DNA of 64,000 bases from Chloroflexota bacterium. Its GTDB lineage: Bacteria > Chloroflexota > Anaerolineae > UBA2200. Position numbers and translations under genes: made by a program. Location: the NCBI GenBank assembly GCA_014360905.1, contig JACIWW010000003.1:62001-126000 (forward strand). The letters are read 5' to 3'. The notes below the pieces were generated by a model. It did no database searches, was not told the DNA's origin, and saw nothing but the letters and a program-made list of their open reading frames with translations. Shown here piece after piece: positions 48,170-54,200 of this stretch. How positions within the stretch are numbered: position 1 is the stretch's first letter; each line of letters starts with the position of its first letter.

Positions 48170-50672
<2,503 letters not shown>

Positions 50673-50722: not shown

Positions 50723-51691
50723 TCAGTTCTGCTTAGCATGCAGGTGTTCACAATGGTCAGACCAGGGGCAGGTAGGCTCAAAGTTGGTAAAATCTTTGAA
50801 CTCGCGGTAGCGTGCCTGGATCTCATCCATGGTAAGAGTCCGTAGCCTGCCCACACCAAAATCCTCTACGGTAAAAGAAGCTACTACGCTGCCATGGATA
50901 ATGGCACGTTTGATGTCTTCTTGGCGGATGCAGCCCTGCTGGGCTAGATAGCCAATGAATCCACCAGCGAAGGAATCTCCGGCCCCGGTAGGGTCTTGGA
51001 TTTTTTCTAAGGGATAGGCCGGGGCAAAGAAAAACGATTTTCTTGGTTCATCGCCATTGGCGAATAGAGTTGCACCGTATTCACCTTTCTTGATCACGAG
51101 TGCTTTCGGCCCTAGGCTGAGGATCTTGCGCGCGGCACGGACGAGGCTGAAGGTATTGGCATATTGACGGGCTTCTGCTTCGTTCATTAGTACAATGTCC
51201 GCTACTGAAATTGCTTGGCTGAGGACATCTTTGCGATAGTTGATCCAATAATTCATGGTGTCAAGCACAGTCAACTTAGGACTTCGGATTTGTGAGAGTA
51301 CCTCCAATTGCAACACCGGGTCAATGTTGGCCAGGAAGACGTACTCCGAATTCCGATATGCCTCGGGTAAGTCTGGATGAAATGTGGCAAAAACGTTCAG
51401 TTGTGTATCCAAGGTCTCGACAGTGTTCATGTCATAACTGTAGCGTCCAGACCAACGGAATGTCTTGCCTTCTACCACTTGCAGGCCATCCAGGTTAACG
51501 CCTCGTTGCCTGAGGAAGTCAATGTGTTCCTTGGGAAAGTCTGTGCCCACTACAGCGACCAGGTTGACCTGAGCGTAGAGTTGGGCGGCCGCTGAAAAAT
51601 AGGTGGCTGAGCCACCCAGGGTATCTTTTACCTTACCAAAGGGTGTTTGGATGGAATCCAATGCAACCGAACCAACGACCAATATGCTCAC
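50723..51691 (-). CDS. PfkB family sugar/nucleoside kinase (possible adenosine kinase)
   Basis: A 322-residue ribokinase-type enzyme. It has VGSVALDSIQTPFG, DTLGGSATYFSAAAQLYA and the C-terminal signature IQDPTGAGDSFAGGFIGYLA, with the catalytic Asp in GAGD. The family phosphorylates sugars or nucleosides. It lies in an operon between a MetE-like gene and metK-ahcY, where the adenosine released by AhcY would need to be removed. Adenosine kinase is therefore the best guess, but the sequence does not settle it. Confidence 0.85.
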   Translation of the reverse strand: MSILVVGSVALDSIQTPFGKVKDTLGGSATYFSAAAQLYAQVNLVAVVGTDFPKEHIDFLRQRGVNLDGLQVVEGKTFRWSGRYSYDMNTVETLDTQLNVFATFHPDLPEAYRNSEYVFLANIDPVLQLEVLSQIRSPKLTVLDTMNYWINYRKDVLSQAISVADIVLMNEAEARQYANTFSLVRAARKILSLGPKALVIKKGEYGATLFANGDEPRKSFFFAPAYPLEKIQDPTGAGDSFAGGFIGYLAQQGCIRQEDIKRAIIHGSVVASFTVEDFGVGRLRTLTMDEIQARYREFKDFTNFEPTCPWSDHCEHLHAKQN

Positions 51692-51729: not shown

Positions 51730-52776
51730 TCAGGCCGTGACGTATCTGGCACGCATCTGCGCCGATACCTCAGCGGTCAATTCCAAAACACGTTCAGCCG
51801 TATGACGATCCAAAGAACCAGTGCCGCAGGAGGGCGTGACCAGTCCAGCAGCTAGGAGTTTGTCCTGCGCAAGACCTTTTCTCACTAATAGATCCATTGC
51901 TTGGTGCAAGCGCTCCAGCAAGCTTTCGGTTGTTTCCCCCTCCACAGCCGAGCTCGCAGGGACAATGCCCCAAGCAATTATCCCCCCGCGCTCCAGGAAT
52001 GCGGCCACTGCGTCGGGATACAGCGAAAGGGATTCCGCATAGGTGTATGCATCGAGGCTAAGAATATCTACCGAAGTATCCAGTAGAACTGACCAATCCG
52101 TATTACCGCAGCAATGGACACCTTTTAAGCCACTGATGCCTGCAAAGACTTCTTCGAGCAGCAACACTACCTGATCACGGCTCAGCGAGACAAAGGCTGA
52201 TCCGAAGGAACTCATGTAAGGTTCATCCACGAAGATGATCGTTTGCGGTGCGAAGGCGCGGAGTTTTTGTTCCTGCCAGGCAGCTTTCAGGCGCAGATGC
52301 TTGGCTATGGCATCAGCCATGACTTCATCGTAGAGCAATGGGCGGCGGTTTTGATCGGTGACTACCAGCCCCCAACTGATAGGCCCGGTAACCTGCCCTT
52401 TGAGCGCAACCAGCGGCGTGGGCAGCAGACCCTCGGTGTTGAGCAGATGATATAGCCCTGCGGCATACTGCGGACTTAGCTCACCGTACTCTAGGTCATT
52501 CTGCAGATAGGCAAGGTACAGGCGTTCTAGGTCGCGATCCAGATCGTGGGTACGATCTACATAGATGCGTTCTGCTTCCAAGTCCACTACGATGCCCGGG
52601 AAGTTTTCGGAGAACTGTGCATACATGTTCTCCTGGTAGGAACGCTTGGGCAATTGGGGCCAGACTGGTATCTGGGGCAAATACTTCAGTGTCCAATCCC
52701 AGGCCTGTGCCACATCGTGCAATGGCAGACTGCCCAGGGCGGCAGGTAACCATGCGGATTGGAATGTATTGGGCAT
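51730..52776 (-). CDS. Core-MetE/UROD-like methionine synthase family protein
   Basis: A 348-residue protein of the UROD/MetE-like superfamily, the length of the catalytic half of MetE. Candidate zinc ligands are in GVHCCGNTDWSVLL (His and Cys) and VTPSCGTGSLD (late Cys). ALKGQVTGPISWGL is also typical of the fold. It probably moves a methyl group to homocysteine, but the methyl donor (methylcobalamin protein or other) is unknown. It lies 17 bases after mtnA with an AAGGAGAAAG-type site. Its place in a SAM-controlled operon supports a methionine role. Confidence 0.8.
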   Translation of the reverse strand: MPNTFQSAWLPAALGSLPLHDVAQAWDWTLKYLPQIPVWPQLPKRSYQENMYAQFSENFPGIVVDLEAERIYVDRTHDLDRDLERLYLAYLQNDLEYGELSPQYAAGLYHLLNTEGLLPTPLVALKGQVTGPISWGLVVTDQNRRPLLYDEVMADAIAKHLRLKAAWQEQKLRAFAPQTIIFVDEPYMSSFGSAFVSLSRDQVVLLLEEVFAGISGLKGVHCCGNTDWSVLLDTSVDILSLDAYTYAESLSLYPDAVAAFLERGGIIAWGIVPASSAVEGETTESLLERLHQAMDLLVRKGLAQDKLLAAGLVTPSCGTGSLDRHTAERVLELTAEVSAQMRARYVTA

Positions 52777-52793: not shown

Positions 52794-53873
52794 TTAATAT
52801 TTCTCGTCGCTTTGCTCGGTGGAAGGTGGAGGCTGTTCAGAGATGCCTTTCACTTTCTTCAGACCTAGGGTAAAAGGAGGGTAAACGATGCCATTCTCGG
52901 TCACAATGCCCGTGACGTAGCGGTGCGGAGTGACATCGAAAGCAGGATGAGCAGCCTTGATCCCTTCTGCACAGATAGGCATTCCGCGGATATGCGTTAC
53001 TTCACGCGGATCACGTTCTTCGATGGGAATATCTGCACCATAAGCAATGCTCAGGTCTATGGTCGAGGTGGGCGCGACGGAGTAGAAGGGGATGCCATTC
53101 TCTTTGGCCAGCACTGCCAAGGAATAGGTGCCGATCTTGTTGGCGACGTCGCCATTGGCTGCAATGCGGTCTGCACCGACCAACACGATATCCACCTTGC
53201 CGCGGGACATGAAGTGGCCAGCCATGTTATCGGTGATCAGGGTACAGGGGATGCCTGCCTGTTGCAACTCCCACGCCGTTAGCCTTGCTCCTTGCAGGAA
53301 CGGACGTGTTTCGTCTACCCAGACGTGAATGCGTTTGCCTTGTTCATGGGCGGTGCGCACTACGCCTAGGGCTGTGCCATAGTCCACGACGGCCAACGCA
53401 CCGGTGTTGCAGTGCGTCAGGATGTTATCGCCATCCTGGATCAGGGTTGCGCCATGCTCTCCCATGCGCCTATTAATCTCGACATCTTCATCGGCGATGC
53501 GCTGCGCTTCTTGTACGACTGCGTGGATGACCTGCTCCGCCGTTTTCCATTGTGGGCTATTCGCCACCTCGCTCATGCGCCGAATGGCCCAGAAGAGGTT
53601 GACCGCCGTAGGGCGGGTCTGTGCAAGGAGATCCGCAGCGCGCTCAAACTCTGCGAGCACTTGCGGGCGTGAACAGGAATGGCAATGCACGACCGCCAGA
53701 GCTAGGCCAAAAGCTGCAGCCGCACCAATCGCTGGTGCACCGCGGATCTTCATCGTCTTGATTGCTTCGGCGACATCGCGGTAATCCGTGTATTCCAGGA
53801 CAACGAACTCGTGTGGCAGTCGTTGTTGGTCAATGAGCCTGACTTTACCGTCGTGCCATTCGATGGTACGCAC
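52794..53873 (-). CDS. mtnA: S-methyl-5-thioribose-1-phosphate isomerase
   Basis: A 359-residue member of the eIF2B-related family. It has MKIRGAPAIGAAAAFGLALA, NILTHCNTGALAVVDYG, DETRPFLQGARLTAWEL and VGADRIAANGDVANKIGTYS, with the catalytic Cys in THCNTG and Asp in GADR. It converts methylthioribose 1-phosphate to methylthioribulose 1-phosphate in methionine salvage. It begins with GTG after AAGGAGG. It is the first gene behind the SAM-I riboswitch and terminator. No other mtn gene is in the window. Confidence 0.95.
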   Translation of the reverse strand: MRTIEWHDGKVRLIDQQRLPHEFVVLEYTDYRDVAEAIKTMKIRGAPAIGAAAAFGLALAVVHCHSCSRPQVLAEFERAADLLAQTRPTAVNLFWAIRRMSEVANSPQWKTAEQVIHAVVQEAQRIADEDVEINRRMGEHGATLIQDGDNILTHCNTGALAVVDYGTALGVVRTAHEQGKRIHVWVDETRPFLQGARLTAWELQQAGIPCTLITDNMAGHFMSRGKVDIVLVGADRIAANGDVANKIGTYSLAVLAKENGIPFYSVAPTSTIDLSIAYGADIPIEERDPREVTHIRGMPICAEGIKAAHPAFDVTPHRYVTGIVTENGIVYPPFTLGLKKVKGISEQPPPSTEQSDEKY

Positions 53874-53893: not shown

Positions 53894-53921
53894 AAAAAAA
53901 TTCTCTCCCGATGGGAGAGAA
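53894..53921 (-). terminator. Riboswitch-controlled intrinsic terminator before mtnA
   Basis: On the - strand, TTCTCTCCC and GGGAGAGAA form a 9-bp stem with loop ATC, followed by seven T. The left arm can instead pair with the 3' end of the riboswitch P1 helix (53930-53942 with 53910-53922, 12 of 13 positions including one G-U), making an antiterminator. SAM binding would free the terminator and stop mtnA operon expression. Confidence 0.92.
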
Positions 53922-53933
53922 GATCCAAACTTC

Positions 53934-54140
53934 CCTCTCATCTTTCAGTCCCTGCTGCTCCTAGAAGAAACAGCAGGGCTGCCGGAATTGGCACCATGAA
54001 TAGCCACTTAGTCTAAATTTTTAATCCTATAGTCATATCGTCGGGCTTCTATCCTCGGATTATTTGATTAAAGACTATCGGACTATTCTGGTTGCCGGGG
54101 TTTCACCGGGCCGGTCCCTCCACCCCTCTAGATAAGAGTG
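53934..54140 (-). ncRNA. SAM-I riboswitch (S-box) with an extended P3 arm
   Basis: On the - strand, conserved SAM-I blocks are in order: the 5' P1 side with CTTATC, GGTGGAGGGACCGGCCC, GGTGAAACCCCGGCAACC, GGTGCCAATTCC, a P4 hairpin (CAGCCCTGCTG to CAGCAGGGACTG) and AGATGAGAGG. These form P1, the kink-turn in P2, P3 and P4 of the class. About 94 bases lie between GGCAACC and GGTGCC (53996-54089), making P3 much longer than usual; GAATAGTC and GGCTATTC pair at its base. It controls the methionine-cycle operon mtnA to ahcY by transcription termination. Confidence 0.95.
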
Positions 54141-54171: not shown

Positions 54172-54200
54172 ATCCTAGCACAGAAGCGTGGATTTGTCAA
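54172..54200 (-). promoter_or_regulatory. Promoter of the SAM riboswitch operon
   Basis: On the - strand a perfect TTGACA (54200-54195) and TAGGAT (54177-54172) are 17 bases apart. Transcription would start about 54165, some 25 bases before the riboswitch. Confidence 0.75.

Follow-up and report, generated by a model that had tools for sequence, protein, structure and literature searches.

A SAM-I riboswitch upstream of mtnA in a Chloroflexota bacterium carries a P3 arm of inverted octad repeats like those around the S23 gene of the same genome

SAM-I riboswitches are well known, and riboswitches tolerate long nonconserved stem-loop insertions (PMC2258182). Variable arms of this kind are usually regarded as filler. 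In Coxiella, the intervening sequence (IVS) is a stem-loop of 23S rRNA that carries tandem heptamers (GACAGAT) and an ORF for S23, the 23S rRNA intervening-sequence protein; RNase III cleaves its stem, at the first repeat (PMC4990558). Intergenic heptanucleotide repeats are also already known (PMC4679880, PMC2700814). They are frequent in the genomes of bacteria, and slippage has been suggested for them (PMC4679880). A survey of the open-access literature on repeat sequences, heptamers and S23 found the Coxiella paper (PMC4990558) as the only direct precedent; no paper was found there that connects repeats of this kind with the arms of riboswitches or that reports inverted S23-flanking arrays in general.

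The window, which is the complete 64-kb stretch of DNA that was analysed, contains on its minus strand a genuine SAM-I riboswitch with a standard core, located ahead of methionine-recycling genes. In a covariance search, RF00162 matches at 54138-53935 with 78.1 bits (gathering score 44.4; E = 1.2e-16). The alignment spans positions 1-108 of the 108 model positions, so that this is a full-length aptamer, and it is the only RF00162 match found in the genome. The four-way junction of P1, P2, P3 and P4 is present both in the minimum-energy fold and in the Rfam alignment (which place the P4 arm at 53946-53983, limits approximate), and the fold of the whole riboswitch leader has a z-score of -4.39. 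A sequence-only reading of this DNA had proposed a SAM-I element with intact conserved blocks and had named the covariance search as a check. The covariance score, the gene context and the folding all bear this identity out, with GGCAACC at 54096-54090 and GGTGCC starting at 53995. A candidate sigma-70-like promoter (TTGACA, 17-nt spacing, TAGGAT; 54172-54200, minus strand; 10/12 matches in a consensus scan) sits 5' of the riboswitch.

Directly 3' of the riboswitch lies mtnA (52794-53873, GTG start), which codes for S-methyl-5-thioribose-1-phosphate isomerase (TIGR00512, 462 bits, cut-off 279). Judged by MtnA, the closest named relatives are uncultured Chloroflexota MAGs (91%, 85%), followed by Anaerolineales MAGs, which makes Anaerolineae the probable class. 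The gene run continues on the same strand with an ORF of 348 aa (51730-52776), a PfkB-family kinase (50723-51691; PF00294, 100 bits) and, at its end, methionine adenosyltransferase (SAM synthetase; 49467-50672; NF003363, 658 bits, cut-off 557; PF01941). The 348-aa ORF has no match in Pfam or NCBIfam and only a non-significant one in PDB. It contains the motif VHCCGNTDW, which we take to resemble that of MetE/UroD-type methyltransferases.

The platform downstream of the aptamer has the expected parts. The 3' strand of P1 (GATGAGAGGGAAG, 53942-53930) doubles as the antiterminator strand. It can pair with the left arm of the terminator (CTTCTCTCCCATC, 53922-53910) at 12 of 13 positions, including one G-U pair and leaving one A-C mismatch, with a duplex energy of -14.7 kcal/mol; the sequence-only reading had given the same count. 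The intrinsic terminator hairpin is at 53901-53921 (its left arm, in the antiterminator pairing, from 53922) and is directly followed on its 3' side by a run of seven T (53894-53900). When the unliganded leader is folded up to the terminator left arm, the minimum-energy structure holds the antiterminator, its energy of -88.4 being equal to the enforced value. Once the terminator is completed, P1 plus terminator reaches -99.6, compared to -92.7 for the antiterminator state. Computed folding thus agrees with the clear switch that had been proposed, the antiterminator being favoured until the right arm of the terminator is made. The antiterminator and terminator sequences are largely alike in the relatives; in genus g3 (L004, L006), an additional GC-rich hairpin between both arms makes the terminator loop larger. 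Judging from its family, the element is probably an ordinary transcriptional OFF switch of the standard SAM-I type. At low SAM, P1 would remain unformed, its 3' strand would pair with the terminator left arm, and transcription would proceed; at high SAM, P1 would close, the terminator would form, and transcription would halt. The switch would control the whole run of genes that starts with mtnA and ends with SAM synthetase.

The unusual part of the element, which the sequence-only reading had missed, is a set of inverted octad repeats in P3. This reading had noted about 94 bases between GGCAACC and GGTGCC, and the insert is exactly 94 nt long (53996-54089). The helices that it listed (GAATAGTC/GGCTATTC, TAGTCT/AGACTA and TTAATC/GATTAA) are all recovered by structure prediction. 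For the 113-nt P3 region, the folding energy is -32.1 kcal/mol (z = -4.15), and none of 200 shuffles is equally stable. Degenerate octads (TAGTC-NNN) form an array along the 5' side of the arm, and the 3' side holds the inverted array. On the minus strand, 54085-54058 contains four units of the TAGTC type at a spacing of 7-8 nt, and the inverted units TAATC/TAGTC/TCGTC (as read on the plus strand) are at 54022-54042. The periodicity is significant at lag 8 (autocorrelation, p = 0.002) and also per arm (p = 0.005). Beyond a 15-nt match, the genome contains no near copy of the arm.

The P3 arm shares its architecture and its repeat unit with the inverted arrays around the S23 gene of this genome. 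G000:C13 holds the genome's largest array, which flanks a gene for an S23 protein (PF05635, 106 bits); this gene lies between inverted octad/heptad arrays (L064, 1450-1650 and 2050-2145). A further hairpin array is located upstream of this S23 gene, which adjoins a trpD-like gene (named by eye). A matrix counted only from the S23-flanking arrays of this genome was scanned over the 64-kb window; a slight circularity is left in it, as the units had been located with the earlier TRGYC motif. On the minus strand, the best match is the 5' side of the P3 arm (54085-54058) with 20.3 bits, while the next site has 12.9 bits and the maximum from 40 shuffled windows is 17.3 bits. On the plus strand, the best match is the 3' side (54022-54042) with 14.5 bits, the next having 13.4. 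The 14.5 bits of the 3' side alone are within the shuffled maxima, and it is its position that constitutes evidence: the best match on each strand of the window falls in the P3 arm, one on either side of it. A pattern of four TRGYC units occurs six times in the genome of the window (G000), twice in G001, 12 times in G002 and not at all in G003-G006, with a single control match across all genomes scanned. Long P3 arms and TRGYC arrays elsewhere in the genome co-occur, both being present in G000, G001 and G002 and neither in G003-G006. The further array sites are mostly intergenic and often just upstream of genes, some of them as inverted pairs. At what seems to be the same place in two genera (L066, 1000-1080, G000:C7; L095, 1984-2060, G002:C52), a TRGYC-type array lies just upstream of a radical-SAM-like gene (named by eye), so that such arrays appear to be inheritable in place.

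Within the same family, the P3 insert has 93 nt in G001, 96 nt in G002, 41 nt in both G003 and G004, and 55 and 26 nt in the two elements of G005; it has 50 nt in G006, which belongs to the same order. The second element of G005 (L007, G005:C82), the one with the short P3, is located 5' of a Cys/Met-metabolism PLP-enzyme-like gene (named by eye). In the long arms of G000, G001 and G002, TRGYC units are mostly 7-8 nt apart on the 5' side, with the inverse on the 3' side. Seven consecutive units (42 bits) are found on the 3' side in G002. The arm of G001 is more decayed: its autocorrelation is not significant, and its chain score is, in a test that is partly circular because the TRGYC motif was first taken from the P3 arms themselves. 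The three arms are 53-56% identical to each other (shuffled 47-48%), compared to 70-90% in the flanking aptamer. They fold with z-scores of -2.9 to -4.1, so that the pairing is kept while the sequence is not.

The arm had been called unusually long. This holds against the Rfam consensus, but the length is not unique: when 396 genomes of the class were searched with exact patterns, inserts of 80-110 nt were found in 41 genomes and inserts of 49-79 nt in 50. The 40 long-P3 loci checked besides the window all match RF00162 with 63-91 bits; one of them (L005) is from the sister species. For the 56 distinct inserts of at least 75 nt, the pooled self-match has z-scores of 20.7 at lag 7, 17.0 at lag 8, 13.9 at lag 14 and 12.2 at lag 21, values that overstate the significance since related genomes are not independent, and it is near background at most other lags. 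Taken individually, 41 of these 56 inserts are 7/8-nt periodic at p < 0.01. The flanking P2/P4 regions have no comparable lag-7 excess (z = -3.1 upstream, 2.1 downstream); the upstream z-score of 5.7 at lag 8, as at several other lags, is due to the pooling of conserved aptamer sequence. The repeat cores vary (TAGTC/TAGTT, TTGGA/TTAGA, CAGTA/GGTAA, TTGGTA and others), and genus mates may bear different ones (G075, G206, G246). As a control, P3 of the TPP riboswitch yielded one exact-pattern match (n = 1), which is not visibly 7/8-periodic.

S23 genes are common in the class, with PF05635 being present in 58 of 90 genomes. At 29 of 37 S23 loci, inverted 7/8-nt arrays flank the gene on both sides, each locus having its own unit (L288-L317, L178-L185); the background array density elsewhere in the same loci is about 0.155 per 500 bp. 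The arrays on the two sides have an identity of 0.855 when compared in inverted and of 0.50 in direct orientation, the null maximum being 0.63 over 500 reshufflings. A G-rich left and a C-rich right arm are common to the S23 arrays and the P3 arms. Genomes with a long P3 have a median of four S23 genes, versus one (p = 0.002, uncorrected for relatedness). Two genomes go against it: in G028 the P3 is long but S23 matches are absent, and G006 has S23 matches, yet its 50-nt P3 lacks a TRGYC array. Among the S23 loci read, exact SAM-I half-motifs revealed no S23 gene within or beside a SAM-I element.

We consider it probable (roughly 0.7) that this is a normal SAM-I OFF switch in which P3 hosts a repeat hairpin of the S23/IVS type that lacks the S23 gene and is a passenger, leaving the switching intact. 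P3, a site tolerant of variable insertions in SAM-I, would have been filled by a long hairpin of inward-running 7/8-nt repeats. This arm, which has no S23 gene, would derive from repeat hairpins of the S23/IVS type or would grow by the same process. The shared unit and architecture suggest that the P3 arm and the termini of S23 elements arose from a common source. Since near copies of the arm are absent from the genome, there is no sign of recent transposition. This last point also fits the main rival, which is quite plausible if short of probable: long hairpins of these genomes, those in P3 included, may grow in place by duplication of 7-8-nt units and template switching between the arms, so that S23 elements and P3 arms would share a mutational process rather than an ancestor, with no insertion at all. 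Slippage has been suggested for the heptanucleotide repeats that are common in bacteria (PMC4679880). It would also be consistent with the different cores within one genus or family (G075, G206, G246) and with the fast divergence of the three related arms relative to their aptamers. What it explains less easily is the sharing of one unit between sites, as slippage at separate sites does not by itself predict that P3, the flanks of the S23 gene and further intergenic sites have one unit in common.

The arm is probably neutral for switching. It might instead be functional, binding a protein (e.g., S23 or RNase III) or slowing folding or transcription and thereby tuning the switch. The pairing that is kept in the three related arms despite sequence change, and the cleavage of the Coxiella IVS stem by RNase III (PMC4990558), would agree with such a role; we nevertheless regard it as unlikely, given that sister genera with arms of 41-55 nt keep both the aptamer core and the terminator unchanged and that freely varying repeat cores speak against sequence-specific binding. 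Disfavoured, and highly improbable, is an ordinary variable insertion with 7/8-nt periodicity by chance. Riboswitches do tolerate long nonconserved stem-loops (PMC2258182), and the copy in the window is degenerate, but chance would have to account for the lag-8 and per-arm p-values in the window, for the top matrix match on both strands and for class-wide z-scores of at least 17 at lags 7 and 8.

Of the long P3 arms sampled in this bacterial class, some three quarters have the architecture that is also seen at the termini of S23 elements. It is tempting to speculate, although we find it rather doubtful, that S23/IVS-type elements are mobile repeat hairpins that enter loops of structured RNAs beyond rRNA, with SAM-I P3 as a recurrent landing site for members without S23, and that the arm is a target of RNase III or S23. 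The P3 arms provide a concrete set of sites, in an RNA of measurable function, for asking if hairpins of this type are mobile, undergo RNase III cleavage or ride along neutrally.

Compared to other SAM-I (S box) elements of RF00162, the one in the window is alike in its full-length match, conserved core, SAM/methionine gene context and terminator/antiterminator platform, and it differs by the 94-nt P3 insert of inverted octad repeats. As in other variable riboswitch insertions (PMC2258182), the arm is a nonconserved stem-loop that lies away from the ligand core, where insertions are tolerated; its 7/8-nt inverted tandem repeats, however, are common to the S23-flanking arrays and not arbitrary. 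The intergenic heptanucleotide repeats of Beggiatoaceae (PMC4679880) and Geobacter (PMC2700814) likewise consist of short 7-nt tandem units in many copies and, like the arrays described here, are mostly intergenic and often upstream of genes; in the available parts of these two sources, they are not placed in a riboswitch or around S23 genes. The IVS of 23S rRNA is located in an rRNA helix and has, in some cases, an S23 ORF in its loop, whereas the insert in the window sits in the P3 arm of a riboswitch in an mRNA leader, has only 94 nt and lacks an S23 ORF. The long IVS stem of terminal inverted repeats is matched by the extended helix of the arm (z = -4.15). In the IVS of Coxiella burnetii (PMC4990558), as here, a long hairpin made of terminal inverted repeats, with tandem 7-nt units, occupies the loop of a structured RNA; the counterpart in the window of the tandem 7/8-nt stem units of this IVS is the degenerate octads on both sides of P3.
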